64,000 nt of DNA from Brachionus manjavacas. Its lineage: Eukaryota > Rotifera > Eurotatoria > Ploima > Brachionidae. Location of the stretch: assembly GCA_019054805.1 (NCBI GenBank), contig JAHQIY010000017.1:310001-374000 (forward strand). Reading direction: 5' to 3'. Position numbers and translations under genes: made by a program. The notes beneath the pieces are model-generated. The model worked only from the letters and a program-made list of their open reading frames with translations. It ran no database searches and was not told where the DNA came from. Below, one piece after another: positions 1 through 21,782 of this stretch; the stretch's first letter is position 1, and the number at the start of each line of letters is the position of its first letter.

Positions 1-3000
1 TTAAAATCAGGCCTTTGAGTAAGATTTGGAAAAACAATTTCATAACTTGTATGAGAGAAATGAAATTGGTTTTCCATATCTAATTCAAAAGCCTGATTTC
101 AGTCTTGAGCTTAATTAAGTAACTAAAAGGAAGCAAAAATCAGGCTTTTGATTAGGAAATGGGAGAACAATTTCATAACTTGTATGAGAGAAGTGAAATT
201 GGTTTTCCATAATTGTTTCAAAAGCCTGATTTTTATCTAAAGTTCATACAAGTACCTAAAAGCACAAAAAAATCAGGCTTTTAATAAGACATGGTAAAAA
301 TAATTTCATAACTTGTATGAGAGAAGTGAAATTGGTTTTCCATATTTTATTCAAAAGCCTGATTTCAGTTTTGGGCAAATTTTAGCATAAAAACCCAAAA
401 TTAAAATCAGGCTTTTGAATAAGATGTGGTAAAAACAATTTAATAACTTGTATAAGAGAAGTGAAATTGGTTTTCCATATTTTATTCAAAAGCCTGATTT
501 CAGTCTTGAGCTTAATTAAGTAACTAAAAGAAAACAAAAATCAGGCTTTTTAATAAGACATGGTAAAATAATTTCATAACTTGTATGAGAGAAGTGAAAT
601 TGGTTTTCCATATTCTATTCAAAAGCCTGATTTCAGTTTTGGGCAAATTTTAGCATAAAAACCCAAAATTAAAATCAGGCCTTTGAGTAAGATTTGGAAA
701 AACAATTTCATAACTTGTATGAGAGAAATGAAATTGGTTTTCCATATCTAATTCAAAAGCCTGATTTCAGTCTTGAGCTTAATTAAGTAACTAAAAGGAA
801 GCAAAAATCAGGCTTTTGATTAGGAAATGGGAGAACAATTTCATAACTTGTATGAGAGAAGTGAAATTGGTTTTCCATAATTGTTTCAAAAAGCCTGATT
901 TTTATCTAAAGTTCATACAAGTACCTAAAAGCACAAAAAAATCAGGCTTTTAATAAGACATGGTAAAAATAATTTCATAACTTGTATGAGAGAAGTGAAA
1001 TTGGTTTTCCATATTCTATTCAAAAGCCTGATTTCAGTTTTGGGCAAATTTTAGCATAAAAACCCAAAATTAAAATCATGCCTTTGAGTAAGACATGGAA
1101 AAACAATTTCATAACTTGTATGAGAGAAGTGAAATTGGTTTTCCATATCTAATTCAAAAGCCTGATTTCAGTCTTGAGCTTAATTAAGTAACTAAAAAGA
1201 AACAAAAATCAGGCTTTTTAATAAGACATGGTAAAAATAATTTCATAACTTGTATGAGAGAAGTGAAATTGGTTTTCCATATTCTATTCAAAAGCCTGAT
1301 TTCAGTTTTGGGCAAATTTTAGCATAAAAACCCAAAATTAAAATCAGGCCTTTGAGTAAGATTTGGAAAAACAATTTCATAACTTGTATGAGAGAAATGA
1401 AATTGGTTTTCCATATTCTATTCAAAAGCCTGATTTCAGTCTTGAGCTTAATTAAGTAACTAAAAGGAAGCAAAAATCAGGCTTTTGATTAGGAAATGGG
1501 AGAACAATTTCATAACTTGTATGAGAGAAGTGAAATTGGTTTTCCATAATTGTTTCAAAAGCCTGATTTTTATCTAAAGTTCATACAAGTACCTAAAAGC
1601 ACAAAAAAATCAGGCTTTTAATAAGACATGGTAAAAATAATTTCATAACTTGTATGAGAGAAGTGAAATTGGTTTTCCATATTCTATTCAAAAGCGTGAT
1701 TTCAGTTTTGGGCAAATTTTAGCATAAAAACCCAAAATTAAAATCAGGCCTTTGAGTAAGATTTGGAAAAACAATTTCATAACTTGTATGAGAGAAATGA
1801 AATTGGTTTTCCATATCTAATTCAAAAGCCTGATTTCAGTCTTGAGCTTAATTAAGTAACTAAAAAGAAACAAAAATCAGGCTTTTTAATAAGACATGGT
1901 AAAATAATTTCATAACTTGTATGAGAGAAGTGAAATTGGTTTTCCATATTCTATTCAAAAGCCTGATTTCAGTTTTGGGCAAATTTTAGCATAAAAACCC
2001 AAAATTAAAATCAGGCCTTTGAGTAAGATTTGGAAAAACAATTTCATAACTTGTATGAGAGAAATGAAATTGGTTTTCCATATCTAATTCAAAAGCCTGA
2101 TTTCAGTCTTGAGCTTAATTAAGTAACTAAAGGAAGCAAAAATCAGGCTTTTGATTAGGAAATGGGAGAACAATTTCATAACTTGTATGAGAGAAGTGAA
2201 ATTGGTTTTCCATAATTGTTTCAAAAGCCTGATTTTTATCTAAAGTTCATACAAGTACCTAAAAGCACAAAAAAATCAGGCTTTTAATAAGACATGGTAA
2301 AAATAATTTCATAACTTGTATGAGAGAAGTGAAATTGGTTTTCCATATTCTATTCAAAAGCCTGATTTCAGTTTTGGGCAAATTTTAGCATAAAAACCCA
2401 AAATTAAAATCAGGCCTTTGAGTAAGATATGGAAAAACAATTTCATAACTTGTATGAGAGAAGTGAAATTGGTTTTCCATATCTAATTCAAAAGCCTGAT
2501 TTCAGTCTTGAGCTTAATTAAGTAACTAAAAAGAAACAAAAATCAGGCTTTTTAATAAGACATGGTAAAATAATTTCATAACTTGTATGAGAGAAGTGAA
2601 ATTGGTTTTCCATATTCTATTCAAAAGCCTGATTTCAGTTTTGGGCAAATTTTAGCATAAAAACCCAAAATTAAAATCATTCCTTTGAGTAAGAATTTGA
2701 AAAACAATTTCATAACTTCTATTAGAGAAGTAAAATTGGTTTTCTATATCTTATTCAAAAGCCTGATTTCAGTCTTGAAACTTAATTAAGTAACTAAAAA
2801 GAAACAAAAATCAGGCTTTTTAATAAGACATGGTAAAATAATTTCATAACTTGTATGAGAGAAGTGAAATTGGTTTTCCATATTCTATTCAAAACCCTGA
2901 TTTCAGTTTTGGGCAAATTTTAGCATAAAAACCCAAAATTAAAATCAGGCCTTTGAGTAAGATTTGGAAAAACAATTTCATAACTTGTATGAGAGAAATG

Positions 3001-6000
3001 AAATTGGTTTTCCATATCTAATTCAAAAGCCTGATTTCAGTCTTGAGCTTAATTAAGTAACTAAAAGGAAGCAAAAATCAGGCTTTTGATTAGGAAATGG
3101 GAGAACAATTTCATAACTTGTATGAGAGAAGTGAAATTGGTTTACCATAATTGTTTCAAAAGCCTGATTTTTATCTAAAGTTCATACAAGTACCTAAAAG
3201 CACAAAAAAATCAGGCTTTTAATAAGACATGGTAAAAATAATTTCATAACTTGTATGAGAGAAGTGAAATTGGTTTTCCATATTCTATTCAAAAGCCTGA
3301 TTTCAGTTTTGGGCAAATTTTAGCATAAAAACCCAAAATTAAAATCAGGCCTTTGAGTAAGATTTGGAAAAACAATTTCATAACTTGTATGAGAGAAGTG
3401 AAATTGGTTTTCCATAATTGTTTCAAAAGCCTGATTTTTATCAAAAGTTCATTCAAGTACCTAAAAGCACAAAAAAATCAGGCTTTTTAATAAGACATGG
3501 TAAAAATAATTTCATTTTTTTGTGCTTTTAGGTACTTGAATGAACTTTTGATAAAAATCAGGCTTTTGAAACAATTATGGTAAACCAATTTCACTTCTCT
3601 CATACAAGTTATGAAATTGTTCTCCCATTTCCTAATCAAAAGCCTGATTTTTGCTTCCTTTTAGTTACTTAATTAAGCTCAAGACTGAAATCAGGCTTTT
3701 GAATTAGATATGGAAAACCAATTTCATTTCTCTCATACAAGTTATGAAATTGTTTTTCCAAATCTTACTCAAAGGCCTGATTTTAATTTTGGGTTTTTAT
3801 GCTAAAATTTGCCCAAAACTGAAATCAGGCTTTTGAATAGAATATGGAAAACCAATTTCACTTCTCTCATACAAGTTATGAAATTATTTTACCATGTCTT
3901 ATTAAAAAGCCTGATTTTTGTTTCTTTTTAGTTACTTAATTAAGCTCAAGACTGATATCAGGATTTTGAATTAAATATAGAAAACCAATTTTACTTTTCT
4001 AATAGAAGTTATAAAATTGTTATTCCATGTCTTACTCAAACCTGATTTTAATTTTGGGTTTTTATGCTAAAATTTGCCAAAAACTGAAATCAGGCTTTTG
4101 AATAGAATATGGAAAACCAATTTCACTTCTCTCATACAAGTTATGAAATTATTTTTACCATGTCTTATTAAAAGCCTGATTTTGTTTCTTTTTAGTTACT
4201 TAATTAAGCTCAAGACTGAAATCAGGCTTTTGAATTAGATATGGAAAACCAATTTCATTTTCTCTCATACAAGTTATGAAATTGTTTTTCCAAATCTTAC
4301 TCAAAAGGCCTGATTTTAATTTTGGGTTTATGCTAAAATTTGCCAAAACTGAAATCAGGCTTTTGAATAGAATATGGAAAACCAATTTCACTTCTCTCAT
4401 ACAAGTTATGAAATTATTTTTACCATGTCTTATTAAAAGCCTGATTTTTTTGTGCTTTTAGGTACTTGTATGAACTTTAGATAAAAATCAGGCTTTTGAA
4501 ACAATTATGGAAAAACAATTTCATAACTTGTATGAGAGAAATGAAATTGGTTTTCCATATCTAATTCAAAAGCCTGATTTCAGTCTTGAGCTTAATTAAG
4601 TAACTAAAAAGAAACAAAAATCAGGCTTTTAATAAGACATGGTAAAAATAATTTCATAACTTGTATGAGAGAAGTGAAATTGGTTTTCCATATTCTATTC
4701 AAAAGCCTGATTTCAGTTTTGGGCAAATTTTAGCATAAAAACCCAAAATTAAAATCAGGCCTTTGAGTAAGATATGGAAAAACAATTTCATAACTTGTAT
4801 GAGAGAAGTGAAATTGGTTTTCCATATCTAATTCAAAAGCCTGATTTCAGTCTTGAGCTTAATTAAGTAACTAAAAAGAAACAAAAATCAGGCTTTTTAA
4901 TAAGACATGGTAAAATAATTTCATAACTTGTATGAGAGAAGTGAAATTGGTTTTCCATATTCTATTCAAAAGCCTGATTTCAGATTTGGGCAAATTTTAG
5001 CATAAAAACCATAAATTAAAATCAGGCCTTTGAGAAAGATTTGGAAAAACAATTTAATAAGTTGTAAGAGAGAAGTGAAATTGGTTTTCATATTTTTTTT
5101 AAAAGCCTGATTTCAGTCTTGAGCTTAATTAAGTAACTAAAAGGAAACAAAAATCAGCTTTTTGATTAGGAAATGGGAGAACAACTTCATAACTTGTATG
5201 AGAGGAGTGAAATTGGTTTACCATAATTGTTTCAAAAAGCCTGATTTTTTATCTAAAAAGTTCATACAAGTACATAAAAGCACAAAAAAATCAGGCTTTT
5301 AATAAGACATGGTAAAAATAATTTCATAACTTGTATGAGAGAAGTGAAATTGGTTTTCCATATTATATTCAAAAGCCTGATTTCAGTTTTGGGCAAATTT
5401 TTAGCATAAAAACCCAAAATTAAAATCAGGCCTTTGAGTAAGATTTGGAAAAACAATTTCATAACTTGTATGAGAGAAGTGAAATTGGTTTTCCATAATT
5501 ATTTCAAAAACCTGATTTTTTATCAAAAGTTCATTCAAGTACCTAAAAGCACAAAAAAATCAGGCTTTTTAATAAGACATGGTAAAAATAATTTCATAAC
5601 TTGTATGAGAGAAGTGAAATTGGTTTTCCATATTCTATTCAAAAGCCTGATTTCAGTTTTGGGCAAATTAAAGCATAAAAACCCAAAATTAAAATCAGGC
5701 CTTTGAGTAAGATTTGGAAAAACAATTTCATAACTTGTATGAGAGAAATGAAATTGGTTTTCCATATCTAATTCAAAAGCCTGATTTCAGTCTTGAGCTT
5801 AATTAAGTAACTAAAAGGAAGCAAAAATCAGGCTTTTGATTAGGAAATGGGAGAACAATTTCATAACTTGTATGAGAGAAGTGAAATTGGTTTTCCATAA
5901 TTGTTTCAAAAGCCTGATTTTTATCTAAAAGTTCATACAAGTACCTAAAAGCACAAAAAAATCAGGCTTTTAATAAGACATGGTAAAAATAATTTCATAA

Positions 6001-6240
6001 CTTGTATGAGAGAAGTGAAATTGGTTTTCCATATTCTATTCAAAAGCCTGATTTCAGTTTTGGGCAAATTTTAGCATAAAAACCCAAAATTAAAATCAGG
6101 CCTTTGAGTAAGATTTGGAAAAACAATTTCATAACTTGTATGAGAGAAATGAAATTGGTTTTCCATATCTAATTCAAAAGCCTGATTTCAGTCTTGAGCT
6201 TAATTAAGTAACTAAAAAGAAACAAAAATCAGGCTTTTGA
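1..6240. repeat. Satellite array of ~133-bp palindromic monomers
   Basis: Each monomer is an inverted repeat of about 95 bp. It opens with AAATCAGGCTTTT-type sequence, closes with CAAAAGCCTGATTT, and has a centre around AACTTGTATGAGAG. Three spacers alternate: one with CTTGAGCTTAATTAAG, one with GTACCTAAAAGCAC, one with GGGCAAATTTTAGC. Monomers form 3-mer units of about 400 bp and 2-mer units of about 267 bp; unit starts near 673, 1075, 1346, 1745, 2011, 2413, 2680, 2947 and 3349 show the alternation. About 47 monomers fit. Copies are nearly identical in the middle. Short open frames here are by-products of the repeat, with no sign of a protein. The array is cut by the left edge of the window. 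Confidence 0.95.
3514..4508 (-). repeat. Inverted block inside the satellite array
   Basis: From about 3514 the array continues as the reverse complement of the preceding units: the GTGCTTTTAGGTACTTG spacer appears instead of CAAGTACCTAAAAGCAC. It returns to the first orientation near 4508. The left switch falls just after TAATTTCAT, inside a monomer; the right switch falls in the arm of a palindromic monomer. Because each monomer is itself a palindrome, pairing between arms could have produced the flip. An assembly artefact is the other possibility. Confidence 0.85.
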
Positions 6241-6363
6241 ATTAGACATGGTAAAAATTATTTCATTACATATTTGACATAAGTGAAAATGATTTTCCAT
6301 TTTTTATTCACATGCTTGATTTTAGTCTTGAGCAAATTTAAGTAAATAAAACTTAAAAATTGT
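6241..6363. repeat. Degenerate edge copy of the satellite
   Basis: The last monomer (ATGGTAAAAATTATTTC ... AAAATGATTTTCCAT ... GCTTGATTTTAGTCTTGAGC) is visibly more diverged than the inner ones, after which repeat identity stops. Diverged edge copies are expected when unequal exchange homogenises only the interior of an array. Confidence 0.7.
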
Positions 6364-7812: not shown

Positions 7813-9169
7813 ATGGTTAACCCAGCGAAACTCATTAAAAAGGATATCAGAGCCCTGCTCCCAAAAGCTTTTCATGAATTCAACAAAATTCATGGGGTTG
7901 GCGCATTAAACGCTCGAAAATTCAAAGAATTAATGAAAAGTATCCTATTTTTCATTATTTTAATTTTATTAATTTTTAATTTAATTAGAAAAAGGTTTAA
8001 AATTTGACAAAAGTGACGAAGAAAAAGCCAACTTATCGAAAGAAAAAGGCTTGGTCAATTTTTGGGTGGAGTACGATGGTAAAGAAACTTTTAAAATAAG
8101 AGAATATGACGACGCGGTTTCACATGTCCTCAAATTCAAAAGTCATGAACTTGACTTAGAGGTAAATTTAAAAGTACTTTTTCTTTTGGTAATTTTTCAT
8201 TATTTTTTGTTAAGAGTGAATCTTTGTATTCGGAAAATCGAACGTTAAGTACTGTTTGTGATTCGAAAAAAGTATTTTTTATCTACTAATTTTATTTATC
8301 TTTAAATTATTTTTTAATAGATGTCAAATCGTGATCTGGATAAGGAACGAATTAAAAACTGTTTCCTTAAATGCAAAAGCTGATGGGAAATGAGCTTGGC
8401 ATTGAGAACATTGATGAAATGAACGAATATTGCACTAGTTAGTTTTACATATAATTAGAAGAATTTTTTTGTAATTTTTTATATTTATTAATTAAGTCAA
8501 TAATATTGAACTTCCAGGCTTTCAAATGGATGATTCAATATATTCAAGAAATATTGTCGGCTTTGATATCTTTCAAGGCATCTTCACCATAAAACAAAAT
8601 GATAAAACGGAAGATGAAATGAAATCGATTAGAATTGCAAATAAAAATGTCAAATCGAGTATCACAATATCAAAACTAAGTGAATTTCAAGGCAAAGATG
8701 ATAAAGATAAGCAACCCGAGATTATTGTCTCGTCAGAAGAAATTTCAAAAGAAACGACATCTGAAATAAAAGTAATGCTTTAACAAATTTTAAATATTAA
8801 TGAACTTTAAATATTTTTAGGAAATTCCCGAATATGTCCACCAAGACGATATTTATTTCGACTTTGATGAAATTTTGGACACGAGAGTCCGAAAAAATAA
8901 GCGTCAGGCAAAAATTAAGTGGTCCAAACTCGGCGGAATAGATTTCAAACCGTATTATTTATTTTAACTAAAAAAAAATTTCGTTTTTAGTTTTATAATT
9001 CTTTTTCAATAGTACTTGGGAGAATTTTTCAATGATAAATCCTGGCTTTCAAAATGAAAGACCTGAGAGACCAGCAAAAGAAGATAGTGCAATTGTCCAT
9101 ATTTCTGACATGCAAAGTCAGAAAGGAACTTTGAATGAATTCAAAAAAAGGCGAAAATACAAATTTTAA
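7813..9169 (+). CDS. Unrecognised six-exon protein (about 297 aa)
   Basis: Splice signals and frame give exons 7813-7939, 7995-8161, 8380-8437, 8518-8771, 8821-8951 and 9013-9169, which sum to 298 codons including the stop. Starting exon 3 at the AG at 8378-8379 keeps one open frame; the stronger-looking acceptor at 8319-8320 would lead into a stop. The N-terminus begins MVNPAKLIKKDIRALLPKAF. The protein is rich in charged residues and ends in a basic KKRRKYKF tail. A central acidic stretch (VHQDDIYFDFDEILD) is followed by a basic one (RVRKNKRQAKIKW), which would suit a nuclear protein. I cannot assign a family. It lies 660 bp upstream of the transposon's JAMM gene and could be a host gene or a cargo gene of that element. 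Confidence 0.65.
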
Positions 9170-9828
9170 ATGAATAGATTTTATTTTTAGTTTTATTTTA
9201 AAATAAAATATTGATCATGAATCGTCATCTTCTAGAATTTTCTTCTTTCGCTTTCACTTTTAACTTATAAGTCTTCAATTGCCTCAATTTTTAATTATAA
9301 AAGAATTTTTTAAATCTTTAATGCTTAAAGCGACCATAAATATGTTGATAAAAATGAAAAAATTCCATTTACAACAAAAAAACTAAGAAATTAGGTATTT
9401 TTTTTATTCAAAAATTTTTAAAATGAAATTTTAAAAATTTTAAACTAAATTAATCAATTTTTGAGTCAACTCTAGAATGAAAGCGTTGTGAGTTATAAAT
9501 AATAGATCAGGCAGACCAGAAGAAAAAAAAATGGTTTATTTTTCTATTATAATTTTTATTACCAATAAATAATTAAAAAAAAATAAAACAATCAATAAAT
9601 ATTTTAAATTGAATCTTGTTCATTTTTTTAAAGAAATTATTTTCTTTAAAATTTTCAATAAATAATTCAAAAAGCTCATAAATAGGCTTCTTTTATAATT
9701 TTATTTTACTTCTTTTTAATTAGAGTTCCCGCTTAGAGACGAAATAAATTTTGTTGTTTTTGAATTTAATATATTAAATTATTAATTATTCTACTTTATT
9801 TTTAGAAAATTAGAAATTTAAACCGAAA
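9170..9828. other. AT-rich spacer before the JAMM gene
   Basis: The spacer is very AT-rich and non-coding. It holds the first copy of the shared upstream motif at 9612-9650. It probably contains the left end of the transposon, but no terminal inverted repeat matching the 17000 region could be seen. Confidence 0.5.
9612..9650 (+). promoter_or_regulatory. Shared upstream motif, copy 1 (JAMM gene)
   Basis: AATCTTGTTCATTTTTTTAA is followed by the palindromic TTAAAGAAATTATTTTCTTT. The same pair of blocks recurs at 10506-10555. Here it lies 179 bp before the JAMM start codon. Recurrence ahead of two genes of one element suggests a common promoter or protein-binding site; the role is inferred. Confidence 0.45.
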
Positions 9829-10374
9829 ATGTCCATACATATATCTAATATAATTAATGATCCACAAACAATGCATTTATCCTATGAAATGGGAGGTGTT
9901 TTCGAATTAGATACAAGAAATATCACCAATATTCAGAACGGAAGTCCAGAAACACTGTTCCTGGAATCAATTCCAATATTTCCTATATCCGATGAACTAA
10001 TTTCATGGCATACGCATCCAATTTCGTCGAATATCAGGAAAAATAACTATCAAGGACAGTTTGACGAAAATGAAATTAAAATTCATTTTGACGCATTTCC
10101 ATCGCCAATCGATATTGAAAACTTACTGAAAGCAGCCTTTCATTATGAAGCTGACACTCAGGAAATTATCTTTTCTGAAGAAGGCAACTTTATAATTCAA
10201 ACATTTATTTTTTCCAATCAACAATTGGATGAAATAAAAAAAAAAGAAATAGAAGAAGATATAAACAATATTTGTGATGTAATGTCGAATATCTCAGTGT
10301 CTTCTCATAATTGCGAAAGCATTTCTGTGGAGAATATAGTCGAAGACTATCTAGCAGATTTCGAAAAATTCTAA
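9829..10374 (+). CDS. JAMM/MPN-like metalloprotease, transposon-borne (181 aa)
   Basis: This is a single uninterrupted frame from an ATG preceded by AACCGAAA. The residues match the JAMM (JAB1/MPN) zinc-protease pattern: Glu20 in YEMGGVF, His61 and His63 in WHTHP, and Ser92 and Asp95 in FPSPID. The HxHP to SxxD gap is 28 residues, longer than the usual ten or so, so there is an insertion at the active-site edge. JAMM enzymes hydrolyse isopeptide bonds of ubiquitin-like proteins or process peptides; which applies here is unknown. The remainder is acidic, with a C-terminal tail of about 50 residues outside the expected fold. The gene sits upstream of the transposase in the same orientation and is the only coding part of the element with no interruption. 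Confidence 0.7.
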   Translation: MSIHISNIINDPQTMHLSYEMGGVFELDTRNITNIQNGSPETLFLESIPIFPISDELISWHTHPISSNIRKNNYQGQFDENEIKIHFDAFPSPIDIENLLKAAFHYEADTQEIIFSEEGNFIIQTFIFSNQQLDEIKKKEIEEDINNICDVMSNISVSSHNCESISVENIVEDYLADFEKF

Positions 10375-10505
10375 CATAAATTTTTTAAAATTAAGCATTT
10401 TTTTTAACTAATAATAACTTTAATAAATTGATTTAATAAAAATTATGTTTATACCCAACCCTGAACAAATTATATTGATGATTCATTTTAAATAAAATAT
10501 TTCAA

Positions 10506-10555
10506 AATCTTGTTCATTTTTTTAAAGAATTTTTAAAGAAATTATTTTCTTTAAA
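10506..10555 (+). promoter_or_regulatory. Shared upstream motif, copy 2 (transposase gene)
   Basis: This is the second copy of the block at 9612, with an 11-12 bp internal duplication of TTTTTAAAGAA. It ends 55 bp before the transposase ATG at 10611. A matching block was not found ahead of the third gene at 14039. Confidence 0.45.
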
Positions 10556-10610
10556 GCAAACTCTTTACATCTGAAAATTAAAAAAAATTTAAATTTTAGT
10601 ATTTATTAAA

Positions 10611-13600
10611 ATGCATACAGCAAAATTCGATAACAAAGAAGAACTAAAAAATATAATTGTCAATTATATGAAAGATAGAGGCTTGACTGATTTGAAGGGA
10701 GGACACAGAACGTCTAGTTCACATTTCGTAGAAATTTGTGAAAAATACTTCGAAAAATCAAAAGAATATTTAAAATTGGAAGCCCTTAATTAATATGTAA
10801 AATGGAGACGAAACGATAATGGGATTAAAAAATACATATTAGAAGAGCTACGTTGCAATGAAAAACTCTCAACTAATTCAGAAAAAAATCCTCAGCATCA
10901 TGAATTTGTTTTTTCATATGATGAATGGAAAAATTTAGAAGAAACAATTACTTCAGCAAGAAGGAAAAAATTTTTATCAGCAGCAAATGCATTAATATCA
11001 AAGAAAATTCAATCAGATGGAATAAATTGCTTATTCAAGCTCAAAAACAATTATTTTTGTTCTGTTAGATGTAATAATTATTCAAAAAATTTTTGGAATG
11101 GAACTTTGAAGTGTGTTCGTTGTAGCAAAGAGTTTAAATCGTTTATAAAGACAGAACCATTTGAAAATTCCAATTGCAAACTGATATTAATTTCAGAGAC
11201 AAATTTTTGTAAAGAAAAAGTAAATTTTGCAATTTTATTAAATAATCTATCGAGAATTGAACGAAAAGCCATTCAAAAAGATATTTATTCTAAAGGTCTT
11301 ATCAATTTTCAAACCGAAAACGATTTTTTAGAAGATGATGATTTTAAAAAACGTGAAATTAGTTATACATCTCTAAGAAAACTCAAAAGTCAATTCAGAC
11401 ACAGATTTCAGCTAAATAATGATCTTCGAATTGATTCTGACGCTACAAAACTAGTATTTGATCTTTTGGTACCAAAAACATCAAAGTCCTTAATTGAAGG
11501 ATATATACAAGAAGTTGTTTCAAATCCATTTGGCGCGCTTTTGGTATCAGAAAAACAAGCAAAAATGTGGGGTGTTATTCAAGAAAACAACCCAGTTTGG
11601 TTTTTTGATGCAACTGGTAAATTAATGCTAAAGCTAAAGGATCAACAAGAAATTTTATTATATTCTAATGTTTGTCATGATCAGACTTTTAAAAACTTAA
11701 TCCCTATCGCCGATTTTTGATCAAGTTCAAATGACACCATAATAATTTACTGTTTTTTAAAAAAAATTATCGAAAGATTTCATAAATATTCTTTTTTACG
11801 ATACCCCAAATTTTTCATTACCGACTTTTCATGGGCAAACATTAATGCATCTTTGAGGGCTTTAAATAATCTAGAAATCATGGATTATTTAGAGCTTGAA
11901 TACGAACTCATAGTAAAAAAAAACATGTGGGCCTCTTTACGAATAAAAACATGTGTCTATATTTGTTCGACTCATTTGCTAAAAAATGTTATTGATGAAA
12001 CCGAAAAAATTGTTGGTAGTGGAAGTTTACAATCAAATGGTCATGTAAAAAAAACTTTTATATGTAGCTTTAGCTTACTTCAGAATAGCACATCAATCGA
12101 GGAACTTTGCCAAATTTTTGAATGCATTCAAATTATTTTCATGACAAAATTCGAAAATGAAATTTTAACCCAAAAAATCCAAAAGCTAGAATTCTTTTTA
12201 TCCACTAGGAATGCAAAATGGCTAAATAACATATGCTATGATAAGAATAAGATGGAAAATGATATCAAGAAACAAATTTTCTTTTTCGAAAATAATGATC
12301 AAAATTTATTGCAGGAATCACCTTTTGCCAAATTTTTTCTCGATCTTTTAAGAGTAAATCAGAAAATTATAGATAAAATAAATGAAAACAATGTCTTGAT
12401 GCTAAAGAACATATTTTATTCACCTAGACTTTTTGAAATAATAAAAAAGAAGCTTCATTTGGCGCCTTTATGGACAGGTTTAATGATTAATAGCGAATTT
12501 CATGGCAAAACTCGTTTTTCAAATAATAACGTTGAGAGTTGGTTTAAGCATTTGAAAAATAGTGTCTTAAATATAAATAAGCGTGTTCGATCTTGTCGTT
12601 TACAATTCCTAAGTGAAATTTCTACGCCTTTGTATTTCTATATTAATCATAAGTATAAAGAATTCTATGAAGACATAGAATATCAGGCTCGGCACACTTC
12701 GAAAGAGAGAAAATTCAGAGAAATGTGGAAATTTAAGAAACCGGCAAAAAATTGTGTTGGTTACCATAATGTTGTTTTCAATATTGACAAGCAAAAAAAT
12801 GAGGATGATATACCAAAGGAAAACTTTTTTGTTGACATTTATAGTGAAGGGTCAAAAAAATTGGAAAATTCAGCAAATGAAATTGAAATAATCGATACAG
12901 AAGTTCCGATGGATATTGACAAAAAACATGAAAATAATTTCGGAAATTTTATCTATTTTAAAATTGAAAATTTTCTAATCCGAAAAAAGGCAATTGACGA
13001 TATTTTAACAAATAAATGGCTTACTGATAATGTAAATATTTCGAAAATTATTAAGATAAATTTATTTATTTCTAAATTAAGGAATTAATGGCTTTTGCAA
13101 AATGCGTTGTAAGTTACTCTAAAAAGAAAATTTTAATTCTCGATTGTTTTCATTCATCTCAGATTTTTAATGAAGGAAAATTAAATAGTGAAATTGGACT
13201 TGGAAATTATTTTGAAGTAGGTTTCTAATTAATAAGTAAAAGCTCTAGTTAAAAAATTATTCAAGTTTAAAAATTTTGATGTAATTTTCGGTTTTATTAA
13301 TGAAAACTTAAATCATTGGTCAATGATGTTTATTGAATTAAACGTAAGTAAATTTTACTATGTTGATCCATTAGGAGAAAAAATAGAAAATCAGAAAAAA
13401 ACTTTTGAAAACTGGAAGTAAGTATAAGTCAGTATTTCATCTAATAATTGTGGGGTATTTGTGAGCTTCTTTCAAAAATGTCTTGTAGAGGGAAAACCGC
13501 TCTTTTTCAATACGTTGAATAGTTCACTTCAAAAATTGCGTTCTGAAATGATTCGTATCTTCAGAAAAAATTCTAGTGAAAATTTCTGTTCCAAATGTGG

Positions 13601-13712
13601 TTCAGAAATCAAAACATTTAAAAATATTGTGAAAGGTGATTGCTTTCATAAATTTCACCAATCATGTATTGAAAATTATGAATTAAATCAGTCATGTCCA
13701 ATTTGTTTTTAA
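10611..13712 (+). pseudogene. MULE-type DDE transposase joined to Ulp1-like protease and RING-H2 finger
   Basis: One frame runs from the ATG at 10611 to 13031, interrupted by in-frame stops at 10791 (TAA) and 11718 (TGA). Catalytic positions are intact: Asp at codon 333 (WFFDATG), Asp at codon 405 (FITDFSWANINA) and Glu at codon 642 (NNNVESWFK). A CxxH pair (YICSTHLLKN) lies between the last two. A Cys-rich stretch near 11055-11120 may be an N-terminal zinc finger. A 50-bp intron (13032-13081) joins it to WLTDNELMAF, the start of a Ulp1/C48 peptidase. After a 49-bp intron (13217-13265) come His (NHWSMMF, 13314), Asp (YYVDPLG, 13365) and Cys (NNCGVFVS, 13449). A RING-H2 finger (CSKC ... CFHKFHQSC ... 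CPIC) ends the protein. Between Asp and Cys two stops lie around a possible splice donor at about 13418, so that join is unresolved. Confidence 0.8.
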
Positions 13713-14038
13713 AATAAATGATTTGACAAAAATTTTTTTTAATCTATATTTAACAAATAAATCTGTTAAATTAAATCGTAAATTTTAACTAAATAATTAC
13801 GAAGGTAATAAGATTATTAACCATATTTTACTAAAAGTATTTATAATTTGGCTTTCCAGCGAGTGTGCTCACTTAATAAGATAATTAAAATTTTAATAAA
13901 GTTAAACTAGAATTATTTTAGGCCTTTTAAATCCACAAAGTCTTAAAATTAAATTTTTAATCTTCTAAAATTTATTTAAAATTTAAAACTGTAATTAAGA
14001 CAAAACCTATACAATATTTGAATATTTTAAATTCAAAA
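13713..14038. other. AT-rich spacer inside the transposon
   Basis: This is non-coding sequence between the second and third gene units. A short palindrome (GCGAGTGTGCTCAC) lies near 13858-13872. I see nothing else in it. Confidence 0.5.
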
Positions 14039-14344
14039 ATGTCCGAAAACCTAAAAAAAAGATCAAATTCAAAATGTGATCCATACGTTGAAATTAAGGA
14101 TGGATCAGACAATGAGAATTATTCCAAAGATGAATTCAATAATGAATCAAAGGATAAAATTATTCTTAAAACATATGTTATTTCATCCTCACTAAAAAGC
14201 GATCTGGTCGAATCTCAACTAGTGAAAATTGATGATGGACCAAAAAAATGTATCAAAGTGAAGGAGAGTCCAAAAGAATGCAAGCAATTCTTTGATTTTG
14301 GCGAAGAAATACATTCAAATAGTTTAGATGATTCTTACATATAG
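14039..14344 (+). CDS. Small acidic ORF, probable first exon of the coiled-coil gene (101 aa as read)
   Basis: The frame opens MSENLKKRSNSK and encodes a hydrophilic Lys/Glu/Asp/Ser-rich peptide ending at TAG 14342. Its composition and position 60 bp before the next exon (14406) suggest it is the 5' part of the coiled-coil gene. No donor keeps the frame into that exon, so it may instead be a separate small gene or a decayed first exon. No domain is recognised. Confidence 0.45.
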   Translation: MSENLKKRSNSKCDPYVEIKDGSDNENYSKDEFNNESKDKIILKTYVISSSLKSDLVESQLVKIDDGPKKCIKVKESPKECKQFFDFGEEIHSNSLDDSYI

Positions 14345-14405
14345 ACATTTGTGGTTTGTTTTTTAAAATTTATGTTTTTAAAATTTTAAACAATTTTATC
14401 TTAAG

Positions 14406-16979
14406 AATAAATCATTTGAGCTAGTTGAGAATATTTCAAATGGAATTTCCAATTTTTTGCAAAATGTTTTTGAAAATGTCGCTGAAAAGCGGGATGATCA
14501 AAATACTGTGAGTATTTTTGAGTATTTGATAAACAATATTTTAAATTTATTTAGATCGACGTAATTTTTCAATCGTCAACTCCTCTTTTGAACGGAAGCT
14601 TTTCCGACAATCAAAATGTTTCACTTATGAATCATGATAATGGTGATATGGAATCAGAGATTGATAACTTACGAGTATTTAATTTTTTTTTCATCGAAGA
14701 TTAAATCTAATCTTCTTAAAAGGCTGCATTAAGATCAAAGACTGATCAATGGAAACAATTTTATCCTGAATGTATTTTAAATGAGGAAATCCTTCAAAAT
14801 GAAAATGAAGCATTAAAAGAAAACTTAAGGCAAAAGTACGAATCACAAAATCGACTGACTTTCATATTGGAAATAAATAAAATTGTATATTTTTAGAAAT
14901 GAGATGGAGAAAAAAGAAAGAGAAAGGCAAGATTACACAATACAGTCTTTAAAAAGAGATGTTGAGAAATTGATTCAAGAAAATGAATTACTTAAAGAAA
15001 AAACAACCAGGTCATGTCCTCTAATTAAAGAATGTAATGGCAGAGGAAACGTTAAAAGAGGTTTATCATCACACTTTGTAATCAAAAACTGTCCGTTCTT
15101 TAATAAGGTTTAGATTTTTGAATTTATTTAAAAATGTTTTTTTTCCTAAAATTTTTTCAAGCAAAGAGAAGAAAATGAAAAACTAAAAGAAGAAAATCAA
15201 AGACTGATTCAAGAACATTTAAAGTTAGAAGAAAGCTTAAAATTAAAAATTGAATCAAGCGAAATGAGATTTCAAAAAGAAAAAGAAGAAAAAGAAATAG
15301 TAGAACTGGAATTAATACAGAAAAGCAAAATATTAAACGAGTAATTTTAAGTCAAATAAAAAGAAACAAATTTAATATTATTGAAAGGAAATTTGAAATA
15401 ATCAGAAAATATTCTCAAACTGATTCTGAAAAATCTGAAATATTAGACCAGCTTTCAAAGAATAACCATTCTCAAGAATTTCAAATGTAAAGAAAAAAAT
15501 GAACTGTTTTTTGCTCTAATGAAAATATTTTATTTAAGAAAAAGATTAATGGAGACGACTGAAAATTTACGGGAAGAAGGCCTAGAGCTAAAAGAAGCAA
15601 AGTAATTTAAAAAAAAGGATATCAGATTATGTAAAAATAAAATAAATTTAACAAATATTTAAAAGAGAAAATGTGACTGAAAAACTCGTGGCATTAAAAG
15701 CTCATTTTGAGGCTGAAGTGTAAGATTAAAATAATGTATAATAATCAGAAAAATTTATATCTTAAAATACTAAAGAAAAGATCTAAATGAAAAGTTAAAT
15801 GCTTTTTCCGAAGAAAAAGAAAAATCTACTGAAGAAAAGTAAGTGATACAGAAAAATTAATTAAAATATTAATTTAAATTTTTTGAAGAGAAAATATGGC
15901 CGAAAAACTCAGCAAGTGTGACGCAGCTAAAGCTCATCTAGAGGATGAAGTGTAAGAATAAAAAAATATTTAATAATCAAAAAAATTTTTCTTTAATTCT
16001 AAAGGCAAAGTCTGAACGAAAAACTTAACGGTATTGCTGAAGAAAATAAACTTGAACTAAGTAGGCAAGAAATTGTGAAGATTCAACTTCCGGAATCAAA
16101 TGTAATTTTTTTTTGAAATCTTTTTTCCTTAATAATTTTTTTTTTAGAAAGATGATGGAGAAAAAAAAAGTTGTTCTTGGTATTGAAAACTCATTTTTAG
16201 ATAAAAAGTATTTATATTTTTAATACTTCTTATTATTATATTTTTATTTATTCTAGATCGAAAGAAATAACCTGTTTTAAAAAACAATTCATCGATCTAA
16301 ATTTTGAAGGCGATAGCTCAATACGTTTCTACGGAATGAAAAAAACGAATTGTCCATTTAAGTTTTGTGGGGGAAAAGGTCATATTGATCCTAAGAAAAA
16401 GAGGTATATAAGGTTATTTTTTAATAATAATTAAAATTTAACATATTTAAATTAAAAAAATAGTGGCCGTTATTGTCCATTTAATCCATCAAATAAAAAA
16501 ATTGGATACGAAAACCAGAATCAGAGACAACTAACTGAACTCAGGCAGGATTATGACGATTTGCAAAATTTAAATGAAAATTTAAAAAATGAATTAAGTA
16601 TGGAAATTTAATTATTTTATTATCGTGATTAATATTCATTTAAAAGCTGAGATGAAGTTTACAATGTTCCAATTACAGGAAGAAATTATGGAAAAAAATA
16701 CCTCAATTAAAGATTAAAAATTAAATCTAGAATCATCCGAAAAGAGAGCTAAAAACCCATAATGGTATAATTAATTTAATTTTTTTTTAATTGAATTATT
16801 CCCGTTTAAATAAAGATTTAGTTTTAAAAAAACGAAAACAAAGACGATCCTGTCGGAACTTATCGAAGCAACGGTTCAAATGGAAGTATTGTATTTAAGG
16901 GGAAAAGAGGCGGATTTTATTATTAAACCTCCGGAAAAAATCGAGTATACATTACACGCCGGGCTGAATCGTGCATAGA
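14406..16979 (+). pseudogene. Many-exon coiled-coil protein with two Myt1-type C2HC fingers and a chlorovirus-adaptor-like C-terminus
   Basis: About a dozen short exons (14406-14507, then about 14555, 14723, 14899, 15163 and on to 16718) are separated by introns of 45-65 bp. Most joins keep frame. The product is dominated by heptad-like Glu/Lys/Leu sequence (LIQENELLKEK; EKLNAFSEEKEK), with two exon pairs that look duplicated (NVTEKLVALKAHFEAEV and NMAEKLSKCDAAKAHLEDEV). Finger 1, from 15015, is C-x5-C-x11-H-x5-C with the GRGNVKRGLSSH core typical of Myt1/NZF fingers. Finger 2, about 16348-16480, is CPFKFCGGKGH ... YCPF and lacks a clear fourth ligand. The final segment, 16840-16960, reads GSIVFKGKRGGFYY, then a stop, then TSGKNRVYI, like the PBCV basic adaptor domain. 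Stops at 16716 and 16921, and an unresolved join near 16100, mark decay. Confidence 0.6.
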
Positions 16980-17112
16980 GTTTTTTTCGGATTAAATTTT
17001 TATATTTTTATTGTTTTGAATTTTTAATTTGAAATTTTTCTTATCATTTTAAACGAAAATTTGATATGAATATAGAAGAAGTTTTTAATATAATTCGGCA
17101 TGAACCCTCCTT

Positions 17113-17960: not shown

Positions 17961-18486
17961 AATTTTAGGACTAGGCTACTTTTTCATAGTCTTTGGTGTG
18001 ACAAAGCTGGTTTGACTTGTCGTCCTACAGAAGAACCCTTTAATATTGCTATAAAAACAATTAAAAATTTCAATTTTATTTTATAAAATCAATAATTAAA
18101 TAAAAAAATCTATAAAAGATAACTTGATTATTTTTTTCTTTGATTTTTTTTAATAATAAAAGACACTTTCTATTTACTATTCGGTTTATTTTTAAGTGGA
18201 TCCTGTCTGGTAAAACGCTTTATTAATTTGTAAGTAGGTTTCATGTAAGTTTTTGTCACCCGAATTCGACTCCTGGCTATCTTCTTTTTGAACTGGTTTG
18301 AAAATACCATTACAGTGCGCAGCAATTTTCAAAATATTTGTTTTCAATATTTTTTCAAATAAAAAAAATATTTTTAAAACACATTTTAAACATAACAAAA
18401 GTTTAAAATTCTATACTTTGGGCTGCCTAAACAGTGGTTTAAATGCTTTGTAAGATTTTGAATTTTATATTATTATTTTTACATTA

Positions 18487-18770
18487 AGTGGTGGTACAGA
18501 GGATGTAGCAGTTGCTACATTCTACAGAATATTTTTTTGCTTGTCCAAAATAAATCTATGGTGTATTTTATATTTTGTTTCTGATTTTGTACTAAAAATC
18601 AAAATTCTGAATTTTGCAGATGTATTGCAGAGTTTTGCAGAATCAGTATATTGGTGGTACAAAAAACGTTTCAGTTGCTACAATTTACAGAACATGTTTT
18701 GCTCCTTCAGAACCTGAGCTTTGACATTTTTTATATTTTGTATTTGGTTTTTGTACCAAAATTCACAATG
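18487..18770. repeat. Two diverged direct copies of a ~115-bp sequence (period ~165 bp)
   Basis: GTGGTACAGAGGATGTAGCA ... TTTGTACTAAAAATC at 18487-18600 resembles GTGGTACAAAAAACGTTTCA ... TTTGTACCAAAATTC at 18652-18765, sharing GCAGTTGCTACA-like and TTTATATTTTGT blocks. The second copy overlaps the end of the Tc1/mariner fragment, so both may derive from the 3' part of that element. TTTTGCAG motifs between them recall the fold-back element near 58600. Confidence 0.5.
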
Positions 18771-18990
18771 CCAATTCCACCCCAGATATGAATTTTACTC
18801 TTAAACTTAGATTTACATGGAATTGCTTCTGGTTGAGAAAAGAAAAGTCTTAAATGGTATGTAGGCTTATCATAAACAATAATGCTTGTTTCATCTACAA
18901 AAAAATAATCATCAAAATCACAGTTTTTATGTCTTAGACACCAAATCAAACGAGCTAACTTATGCAGTATGCAGGTGCTTTTCTAAGTCG
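18728..18990 (-). mobile_element. Tc1/mariner-type transposase fragment
   Basis: On the minus strand, 18949-18731 reads DDYFFVDETSIIVYDKP and then SKIHIWGGIG. This matches the DDE region of Tc1/mariner transposases: the first Asp in FxDE, then the H-[VI]-W-G-G motif. Upstream in the same frame, RLIWCLRHKNCDF fits the preceding helix. Only about 80 codons remain; no helix-turn-helix, third catalytic residue or terminal repeats are seen. It is an old truncated relic. Confidence 0.7.
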
Positions 18991-20492
18991 TCTACTACGA
19001 AATCCTCAACGAATTTCATTTTATTTTATTTAGTTATGAAGGCTTAATAGAATATGTTACCTAGTTTAAATCTATATTTTCGTATCACACTTGCACTAAT
19101 TTTTTTATCAAATTCTTTTTCTATTATTTTAGAAAGTTAAGTGGATGATTCTAAATCTTTTTTTTCGATCGTCCGATTCTTATGAGAAAAAAGATTAATA
19201 TAAATAATTTCATATTCAAAAAAATAATAATAATTACCCTAATATAATTAACTAATTCTTTTGAAATGGACCTTGAATTTTTGGTTCCTACTTTTTTCTT
19301 TCTTGAATTGCTTATTAGTTTTTGTATTTATTTAAGAACATATTAAAAATAGAAACAAATCAAAAAAATTTTAATTTTTTACTAGGATAGCTAGTTTATT
19401 AGAAAAATTAAAAAATTCTTAATTTTCTTTTAAAAGTTACTTTTTTTTTACCATATTTTACCTTTTTTTACATAAATTTACGTAAAAATATTACGAAAAT
19501 TAACTTTTTATAACAACGTATTTTTACGTAAATTTAGCAGAAATCCACTTGTTAAATCGGCACTGTAATCTCAAATAATGTAAGAAGTTGTTTTAAGAAA
19601 TTTAAGTTAAAGATACTGCTAACAATTGTTAAAAGATCAATGTTGAAGTTTTCGAAGTTTTAGCTCTCTATTTGCAATAACATTAACTTGATTTTTTTAG
19701 AATTTGCGGGAAAATTTGAATTGTTTAACTTGAACATATTATTGTTAAATTTTTGCAAATTATTTTGGATCTTTTTTTTTTTATTTTGATTTTACAATAA
19801 TTTTAAATTTTAAATGATTATTTTATAAAGAATTTAATTAAATTAAGTGTTAATAATTCTTATAATACCCTCCTTGAAACTTTGCCAATTTGCCAATGTG
19901 GCTTGGACTTTGATCAAATAAAATTTCAGATTGCGAAAAAATTCTTACAAAACTAAAAAAATTAATTAAAAATCAAATTCTTGTCTGAACAAGTTACATA
20001 ATTTTACAGCAATTTTCATAAGCTTACTGAACACTGTTTATTTTAAAAGCCTTTTTGAAACTCTTGACGACTTGAAATATATCAATCTTTGGGACCGAAC
20101 ACTTAAGACATATCTTTGGAGTATGCAGTTTATATTAAGAGTGTTTTGACATAGTCGAGATGATGTTTCGGTTTATGATACTCCATTGTGACGAAAAAGA
20201 TAATATTTTAAAGAATAACTAAAATAATTCTTGTTAGAAAAAAAATTAATTCGAAAAAAAATCAATTAATAAATTTTAATTGAAATTTTTAAATTATAAA
20301 ATTTAAAAAAATTTGCTGAAGGCAATTTTAAAAAGATTAATATTTTTATTTACATTTTTTAGTCTCAATTTACATGCCTTTTTAGTAATTAATTTAGCTC
20401 ACATTTTTTTTTAATATCGAAAAAAAAGCAAAATATTAATAAAAAGTACAATAAAATTATGAATCTTTATTAAAAATTAAAGGTTTACAAAT
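18991..20492. other. Gene-poor AT-rich stretch
   Basis: No gene is supported here. 19440-19560 carries several TTTACGTAAATT-type palindromic words like those near 36230, 53540, 54080 and 62760, probably remnants of one dispersed repeat. The rest is AT-rich sequence in which I see nothing. Confidence 0.5.
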
Positions 20493-21587
20493 TCAATAAA
20501 AAGATCCCAATTGTTTCATTGCTTCGTTCAAAATTTCATGAATAAGCCTAGATTTATCATGGCTTGCCACAGGATGTTCTTTCCAGCCTAAAAATAAAAT
20601 TCTATAAATAATCAATTAGGCTTTATTGACGAACCTTTTGATAAAGCTTCTCTGCAAGCTTCAGCTTCGAAGCTTAAGCCAACGCTGTTTGCAAAATTTG
20701 TAGGCGGACAGCTAGGCAGAGGTTCTTTATGTGTTGTTCGATCAGCTTTGATAAATTCAACCGGACACCATGATAAGTCCGGAATTTCAATCAAACCCTT
20801 GTCACCCATGACCGAAGTTCTTGCATTCTGGACACAAGTAGTCGACATATTAATCACAGCAATCCGGTTATTTTTGTACAGCAATGTGATCGATGCACTC
20901 TCGTCACATCCTGATGGCATCAGATGACCATTACAGCTTATCTTTAATGGTTTTTCGTGGTCCATTAAAAAACAAATCATTTGAATTGGATAAATTCCAA
21001 TACTTAAAAATAAAAAAATTTATACTGAAAATTTTTGTTTTTTTTGCTTACTCCAAAAGACCTCCTCCACCAAGTTCCCTGCATTTGATTCTTTCCACGT
21101 CTTTGATGGGAATCATAAAATTGCTGATTATGTATCGAATATCTCCGATAGATCCATTAGTGATTTGTTCTTTGAATTTTTTCATTATCGGAAAGAATCT
21201 TGTCCACAAAGCTTCCATGAAAAATATTCCTTTTTCTTCTGCTGCTTTCAACACTTCCTCTTGGTCTTGTTTGTTCAAACTCATTGGTTTCTCGCACAGA
21301 ATGTGTTTACCAGCACTGATCGCTTTAAGACAGACTTCTTTATGCGTGTTATTGGTGGTTCCAATGTAAACAATGTTCACATTTGTGTCAGCAAATAGCT
21401 CATCATAAGATCCATAGTGAGAAGGAATTTCGAATCTTTGGGCGAATTTTTCGGCTCTTTCAAGAGACCGTGCTGCACAAGCTTTAAGAACATGGTTTGG
21501 CATTTTTGTTGCTCTTAAAGCGGTACAAAAATCTTGGCTTATCAATCCACAGGCAACAATTCCCCAATTTAAAATAGTTTCACTCAT
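20493..21587 (-). CDS. DHDH: Trans-1,2-dihydrobenzene-1,2-diol dehydrogenase (Gfo/Idh/MocA family)
   Basis: There are three exons: 21587-21052, 21002-20635 and 20587-20493, giving 332 residues (the human enzyme has 334). The introns are 49 and 47 bp. The Rossmann fold opens with NWGIVACGLISQDF. It is followed by YIGTTNNTHKEV, the family's EKP motif (LCEKPMSLN), and LWTRFFP; the conserved GGGGLLD-IGIYPIQ spans the first intron. DHDH enzymes oxidise trans-dihydrodiols and reduce dicarbonyls and some sugars with NADP(H) in the cytosol. The start is the only ATG near the Rossmann fold (MSETILNWGIV). The gene is divergent from NUP43, with 195 bp between the start codons. Confidence 0.93.
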
Positions 21588-21782
21588 TTTTTAGATTAAG
21601 ATTACCATTTAAAAAAAACATTAAGGCTTTTATATTAGAATTTGAAAGGATTAGATTTTTATAAAAGAATCTAGAAGGATAAGGCTATTATAAAAGTTAA
21701 TAAATTTTGCAATTTTTTTTTAACAATTTTTAAAATTAGCATGCAAAAAATAGAAATCAAATAATTGTTCAAAATATCTAAA

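Follow-up and report, generated by a model that had tools for sequence, protein, structure and literature searches.

The window analysed here comprises 64,000 nucleotides of the Brachionus manjavacas genome (contig JAHQIY010000017.1, positions 310,001 to 374,000; C17:310001-374000 among the 61 contigs, 114 Mb in total, that were searched). A copy of a large Mutator-like element (MULE), a DNA transposon, lies in it in decayed form; the host rotifer belongs to the Brachionus plicatilis group. The core set of this transposon appears to be one gene for a transposase, a Ulp1-like peptidase and a RING-H2 finger, accompanied by a coiled-coil gene. A small gene with the motif of JAMM metalloproteases, here called JAMM-like, is an accessory cassette beside the transposase in three families of the transposon. 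The JAMM-like gene evolved under purifying selection, and the copies of the cassette are far younger than the split of the transposases of their families. Taken as a whole, we consider it probable that a MULE with Ulp1 and RING domains and a coiled-coil companion carries a JAMM-like cassette that was exchanged between families.

Core genes and ends of the transposon

The last long open reading frame (ORF) of the transposase enters the first box of the Ulp1-like domain in frame. A homologue from Brachionus calyciflorus, P0001, is a single predicted protein of 1073 amino acids and is 38% identical; its residues 4-860 align over positions 10617-13034, and a further alignment covers 13278-13709. 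P0001 was matched by Peptidase_C48 with 49.4 bits (cut-off 20.7, E 6.6e-13), and the His-Asp-Gln-Cys residues of Ulp1 were located in it by eye. These results support an earlier note, made from the DNA letters of the window, which had proposed that the transposase and the peptidase form one gene. The RING-H2 finger that it had read at the C-terminus was also recovered, with C3H2C3 zinc ligands and a score barely above the PF12678 cut-off (31.7 vs 31 bits). Scores under the cut-off were obtained for the sister copy L009 (30.7 bits) and for families B, C and D, and the C-terminal RING_2 match of P0001 (E 4e-4) likewise fell short of its cut-off.

DDE-type motifs in the transposase were read by eye. 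Of nine homologues scanned, three were matched by the MULE model (PF10551), all below the cut-off: P0001 (E 0.001, at the expected place of the first two catalytic aspartates), P0006 (E 0.0053) and P0002 (E 0.029). The search with the transposase matched Brachionus proteins, and one B. plicatilis model was 94% identical across a transposase stretch of about 100 residues, which places the host in the B. plicatilis group. An AlphaFold model of P0001 with nine relatives gave a predicted local distance difference test score (pLDDT) of 40.4.

Target duplications of 8-11 bp, mostly 9 bp, and long terminal inverted repeats (TIRs) are hallmarks of the Mutator superfamily. The element extends from C17:308337 (L061:4838), 1.66 kb to the left of the window, to window position 18772. 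Its length of 20,436 bp follows from the sequence ...GTACCAAAATTCACAATGCC, which terminates at 18772, and from the reverse complement of GTACCAAAATTCACAATGCC, which opens the left end at L061:4838. The limits 9600-16980 given in the earlier note enclose only the middle of the element, and the DNA matches with sister copies extend both upstream and downstream of them and end near 18772. TIRs of about 450 bp were found at both ends in several copies; the window copy has a right TIR of about 450 bp and has kept only 58 bp of the left one. Target duplications were judged on nine pairs of element ends. They were perfect and 9 bp long in five pairs (C29, C30:109030, C35, C26 and a short element on C23), whereas the C2 pair has a 9-bp duplication with a single mismatch and the C13 pair one of 8 bp. 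In the window copy, 8 bp are duplicated with a single mismatch (AATCCCAC/AATTCCAC). No target duplication was found at the C6 pair. The insertion site is the reading frame of a mariner-type transposase, which by eye resumes from flank to flank across the element.

Some of these data weigh against the assignment to the MULEs. The best Pfam MULE match reached 19.9 bits against a cut-off of 27.6, and no MULE match was obtained in the window ORFs or in the open 808-aa transposase of family C. The end pairs of C6, C13 and the window lack a 9-bp duplication, and TIRs of families B and C were not found in the 10-11 kb examined.

The window copy is decayed: stops at 10791 and 11718 break the frame of its transposase, and it lacks about 107 bp that sister copies have near 13443. 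The same gene order was found in eight colinear copies, which are 97-98% identical and span window positions 9501-13444 or nearly so; seven of the eight run on past the start of the coiled-coil gene. In family A, that of the window copy, and in families B (L022, L019), C (L023, L024) and D (L025, L027, L029), the transposase, Ulp1 and RING parts follow one another in this order. The transposases of the four families are only 34-38% identical to one another, with a synonymous divergence (dS) of 1.5-4.5, at which synonymous sites are saturated. Ulp1 and RING signals were obtained in the one copy scanned for each of the four families, the RING mostly below cut-offs, and the Cys-box exons of one copy per family matched Peptidase C48 with E values of 0.0008-0.004, below the cut-off. 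It is this recurrence side by side in four diverged families that suggests the core set.

The coiled-coil gene consists of many short exons with repeated exon units. Its C2HC finger was matched by PF01530 in family A (E 5.4e-5, below the cut-off), and a weak C2HC match (E 0.09) was found in family B. Kinship of the family-D gene was judged by eye from common SSTP and PIxDP stretches. Family C probably has the gene as well, judging by eye from acidic repeats and a coiled coil, and its membership in the core set of that family is therefore less sure. The finger and coiled-coil gene described in the earlier note is thus confirmed, and it recurs in families B and D and probably in C. A basic adaptor-like tail of the PBCV type was suspected by eye in this gene; Pfam gave none in the family-B tail, and it is not claimed. 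In the copy at C29:550698-557041, a 338-bp piece of the gene (window 15714-16050) was matched 14 times at a spacing of about 462 bp, which indicates that the repeat number varies strongly among copies.

The JAMM-like cassette in three families

The JAMM-like gene is an ORF of 181 residues with E20, HTHP at 61-64 and SPID at 92-95. H61, H63, S92 and D95 are invariant over nine aligned rows, four of them from B2 and C relics. With a pattern and spacing limits that were set after sight of the ORF, the loose form of the motif occurred in 334 and the strict form in 14 of 300,000 shuffles. The motif was found in 17 of 180 distinct ORFs of at least 100 amino acids, of which 14 are copies of the JAMM-like gene and three are host proteins, named Rpn11, AMSH and CSN5 from their sequence.

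The profile tests and the spacing of the motif speak against a JAMM protease. From P64 to S92 there are 27 residues, versus 6 in the host Rpn11, AMSH and CSN5. The gene is matched by none of the JAMM models of Pfam, PHROGs and NCBIfam, and Prok-JAB at E values up to 10 retrieved only the three host genes, the JAMM-like gene not being among them. A hidden Markov model (HMM) made from four JAMM domains scored the protein no better than shuffles (without a positive control), and single-sequence AlphaFold gave a pLDDT of 37.5. By hhalign, only the HTHP patch of the protein was recognised. JAMM family membership by profile was rejected, as all profile tests (Pfam, PHROGs, NCBIfam, Prok-JAB and the home-made HMM) were negative. 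Because the motif is present and the profiles are negative, the gene is called JAMM-like and is not placed in the JAMM family; what the earlier note had read as a JAMM-like gene is upheld as an ORF with the three motif parts, but not as a member of that family. A database search with the protein yielded none of 55 candidates at E ≤ 0.01, and a PDB sequence search yielded two matches that were taken as chance, neither of them a JAMM protein. A viral origin was considered, and no relative was found in one scan of viral_contigs made with only two N-terminal patterns.

Hits of the transposase, the JAMM-like gene and the RING were grouped into 70 clusters with a gap of 4.5 kb; nine of the 38 RING hits, being second pieces at places already counted, were excluded. 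All three parts were present in 15 clusters (C6 with two sets), RING and transposase in eight, the transposase only in 35, the JAMM-like gene and transposase in two, the JAMM-like gene only in five and the RING only in five. These counts are lower bounds, since 93 of 149 transposase candidates were scored and diverged RINGs, that of C34 among them, escape the family-A RING query; all 37 JAMM-like candidates were scored. On reading the flanks, the five clusters with only the JAMM-like gene adjoin transposase-family sequence as well (L046 by DNA similarity only). All 22 JAMM-like clusters are thus linked to the transposon, and none resembles a host gene.

The gene is missing in several copies. 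It is absent from the family-A-related copy on C4 (L008, L085), where the flanking direct repeat is single, and from L028 on C2, which jumps from window position 9428 to 10649, the repeats being gone too. No JAMM-like hit was found within 4.5 kb of three family-D copies (C27, C29:534278 and C9:3845161), and no JAMM-like gene over 2.6 kb upstream of the copy on C27. The family-C copy on C34, with the open 808-aa transposase, also lacks the gene; this copy retains a stretch like the 3' tail of the gene, so that the gene was probably lost there, which weighs against an exchange of the cassette. Given the family-A relatives of C4 and C2, the view that the gene always belongs to the element was rejected. 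The single set of genes proposed in the earlier note, with members recurring side by side, therefore holds for the transposase-Ulp1-RING gene and the coiled-coil gene (less surely in family C), but not for the JAMM-like gene.

The 5' edge of the cassette is the same base, window position 9742, in A, B, B2 and C. The 80 bp downstream of it are 84-96% identical between these contexts. The 80 bp upstream were no better than shuffles in eight of nine cross-context pairs (25 to 140 of 200 shuffles reached the score). The 3' edge lies at about 10427-10443 in comparison with C and at 10460 in comparison with B. In A and B the gene precedes the transposase and points in the same direction, and in C the two are head-to-head. 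Two observations weigh against an exchanged cassette. The upstream pair of A and C51 outscored all 200 shuffles (A and C48 did not), and the 5' edge may be less sharp there; and the family-C carriers of the cassette are all relics (L046, L047, L048, L051 and L052).

The cassette DNA is 88-96% identical between families, with a dS of 0.08-0.29, versus 1.5-4.5 for the transposases. Between A (L034) and B (L041), dS was 0.076 and the ratio of non-synonymous to synonymous divergence (dN/dS) 0.39; between A and B2 (L045), dS was 0.113; and between A and the C relics, dS was 0.17-0.29 and dN/dS 0.27-0.38. The window copy and L041 are 94.3% identical in the 5' part, 95.6% in the coding part and 91.9% in the 3' part of the cassette. 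As the non-coding flanks are nearly as similar as the coding part, this likeness goes beyond the constraint on the protein. The low dS of the cassette against the saturated dS of the transposases, together with the common 5' edge, points to exchange between families. Family A seems to have received the cassette from a family-B-like element, since 81 bp of the 5' region of the B transposase gene came along with it.

The dN/dS of the JAMM-like gene between families was 0.27-0.47 (Fisher p 0.04 to 2e-5 in six comparisons). Values of 1.0 and 1.1 were obtained for two relic pairs. The pair of the window copy and L034 showed 6.5 non-synonymous versus 0.5 synonymous changes, an excess as expected of a decaying copy. 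The purifying selection indicates only that the protein matters.

Alternative explanations and possible roles

The transposase would move the element by cut-and-paste. The Ulp1 and RING domains may work in cis on the transposase itself, or may target host silencing factors that bear SUMO or ubiquitin, and the element may thereby edit the ubiquitin and SUMO tags of its host. The JAMM-like protein, if it is a true metalloprotease, would add a zinc-dependent isopeptidase activity that trims ubiquitin-type tags. Transposon silencing in animals relies partly on SUMO and ubiquitin, and counter-silencing has a direct candidate in an animal MULE whose transposase bears SUMO-protease-like and RING domains. 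The same genes can be read as those of an ordinary Ulp1-bearing MULE in which the RING and the JAMM-like gene are passengers without a role in transposition, and this we consider somewhat unlikely. MULEs with a Ulp1 domain are known, as is the capture of genes by MULEs, and three family-D copies and some A relatives manage without the JAMM-like gene. However, a C-terminal RING-type signal is kept in one copy each of A to D and in P0001, although mostly below cut-offs, and the dN/dS of the JAMM-like gene between families stands well under the values near 1 of the relic pairs. That the JAMM-like protein is no metalloprotease but an accessory protein specific to the transposon, with HTHP and SPID by chance, is a possibility that we take seriously while leaning against it. 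It would account for the missing JAB/JAMM profile matches, the empty database search, the low pLDDT and the unusual spacing of the motif; yet the motif is rare among shuffles, the only other ORFs among the 180 that match it are three host JAMM proteins, and four of its residues are invariant in the nine aligned rows.

The spread of the cassette may have proceeded by recombination or by gap-repair template switching between elements, the ways in which MULEs are thought to capture genes (Pack-MULEs). The insert in family A would then derive from an element like those of family B, and the duplication of element DNA on either side of it is what gap repair with template switching predicts. On a bolder reading, the JAMM-like gene is mobile cargo of about 0.7 kb whose 5' edge is fixed; it hops from one diverged MULE family to another within the genome and supplies each with a second enzyme against ubiquitin-type tags, beside the Ulp1 and RING already built in. 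This we regard as unlikely; if true, it would amount to a pool of counter-silencing genes common to competing transposon families. Quite unlikely, in our judgement, is an inherited core gene that looks young through gene conversion among elements, without any transfer into naive elements. Its presence in three families and the apparent loss at C34, where a 3'-tail-like stretch was kept, fit inheritance, and gene conversion would also give a low dS. Yet the orientation differs between A and B on the one side and C on the other, the flanks past the cassette are unrelated in eight of nine comparisons, and the A insert lies between duplicated repeats, single in the JAMM-less C4 copy, beside a 5' piece of the B transposase gene. 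Retroposition of the cassette was also considered, in view of its single exon, its fixed 5' edge and an AATAAA near the 3' edge; but inspection by eye showed neither poly(A) nor a short target duplication, and the A insert includes DNA from before the B transposase. Exchange of the cassette between families of the transposon is the explanation that we prefer. If a small protease-like gene is indeed exchanged between distant families within one genome, transposons would resemble phages and plasmids in having accessory genes in common, and the modular evolution of eukaryotic transposons would become testable.

Other features and comparison with known systems

The features of the element and its insertion site are listed in the table.

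Features of the transposon copy and its insertion site, in window coordinates
Feature	Positions	Strand	Basis
134/267-bp satellite array inside the element, continuing left to L061:5294	1..6342	.	Tandem Repeats Finder (TRF) and matches to copies
Upstream multi-exon gene, ends by eye	7813..9169	+	exons match P0009 (B. plicatilis protein model)
Left copy of the direct repeat flanking the JAMM-like insert	9612..9650	+	single in JAMM-less L085
81-bp piece; in family B it belongs to the 5' region of the transposase gene, directly before the ATG	9663..9743	+	DNA comparison
JAMM-like cassette common to A, B, B2 and C (with C only to ~10427-10443); 5' edge 9742 in all four contexts	9742..10460	+	DNA comparison
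JAMM-like ORF, 181 aa, E20, H61, H63, S92, D95, open in the window copy	9829..10374	+	ORF and motif; no profile support
Right copy of the direct repeat flanking the JAMM-like insert	10506..10555	+	DNA comparison
MULE-type transposase, Ulp1-like peptidase and RING-H2, decayed (stops 10791, 11718; ~107 bp gap near 13443)	10610..13712	+	ORFs, homologue alignments
RING-H2 finger	13566..13709	+	PF12678 31.7 bits, cut-off 31
Coiled-coil gene with C2HC (Myt1-type) finger, ends by eye	14039..16979	+	sister copies; relatives in B, D, probably C
Right TIR, element ending ...GTACCAAAATTCACAATGCC at 18772	18324..18772	+	end comparison among copies
8-bp target duplication AATTCCAC, left copy AATCCCAC	18773..18780	+	within mariner-type transposase ORF

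The satellite array totals about 7.5 kb (window 1-6342 and L061:5294-6501), and sister copies match differing extents of it. C6 has two element units, and the array there follows the RING part of the first. The upstream gene is conserved among family-A copies and had no Pfam match above the cut-off when a composite of window and P0009 residues was used as the query. P0009 was deposited as a B. plicatilis "MAP kinase kinase kinase kinase", but its gene model is a fusion that takes in exons of this transposon and passes over the JAMM-like gene.

Some elements, about 1 kb long, have only the TIRs of this family and resemble miniature inverted-repeat transposable elements (MITE-like derivatives). 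One lies at C23:190541-191510 and is bounded by a 9-bp duplication; similar pairs occur on C19, C4, C9, C3 and C6. The copies at C2:9449560 and C30:286560 carry the same sequence to their left, a sign of either a segmental duplication or an uncollapsed haplotype. At C13:1711610-1716467, the flank of one end recurs reverse-complemented beside another end, as an inverted duplication or an assembly fold-back. The mariner-type ORF, named by eye, lies at window 18773-19380, and stretches 92% identical to it occur on C5 and C6. A dehydrogenase-like stretch, also named by eye, lies at window 20490-21590; a 90% identical copy is found at C17:302503-303620, to the left of the transposon.

The Brachionus element resembles the Mutator/MULE superfamily (MuDR, Phantom, Muta1) in its 9-bp duplications, long TIRs, DDE-type motifs read by eye and the weak MULE match in homologues. 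It differs in its length of 20 kb, its internal satellite array, its several genes and its RING-H2 C-terminus. Ulp1 domains are already known in MULEs, and a Peptidase C48-type domain within the element is shared with the Ulp1-bearing Kaonashi MULEs of plants. Unlike in Kaonashi, the Ulp1 domain of the Brachionus element is fused in frame behind the transposase and is followed by a RING-H2 finger, the host is an animal, and some copies carry the JAMM-like cassette. To our knowledge, no MULE with a RING-H2 finger behind Ulp1 has been described. The order of E, HxHP and SxxD is common to the JAMM-like gene and the JAMM/MPN+ metalloproteases (Rpn11, CSN5, AMSH), from which the gene differs in its spacer from HxHP to SxxD, of 27 residues where they have 6, and in matching no profile. 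We know of no JAMM-like cassette common to several transposon families. In Pack-MULEs, a gene is likewise gained between transposon sequences, with duplicated element sequence flanking it; unlike in Pack-MULEs, the cassette described here is common to coding, diverged families and has the same 5' edge in them.

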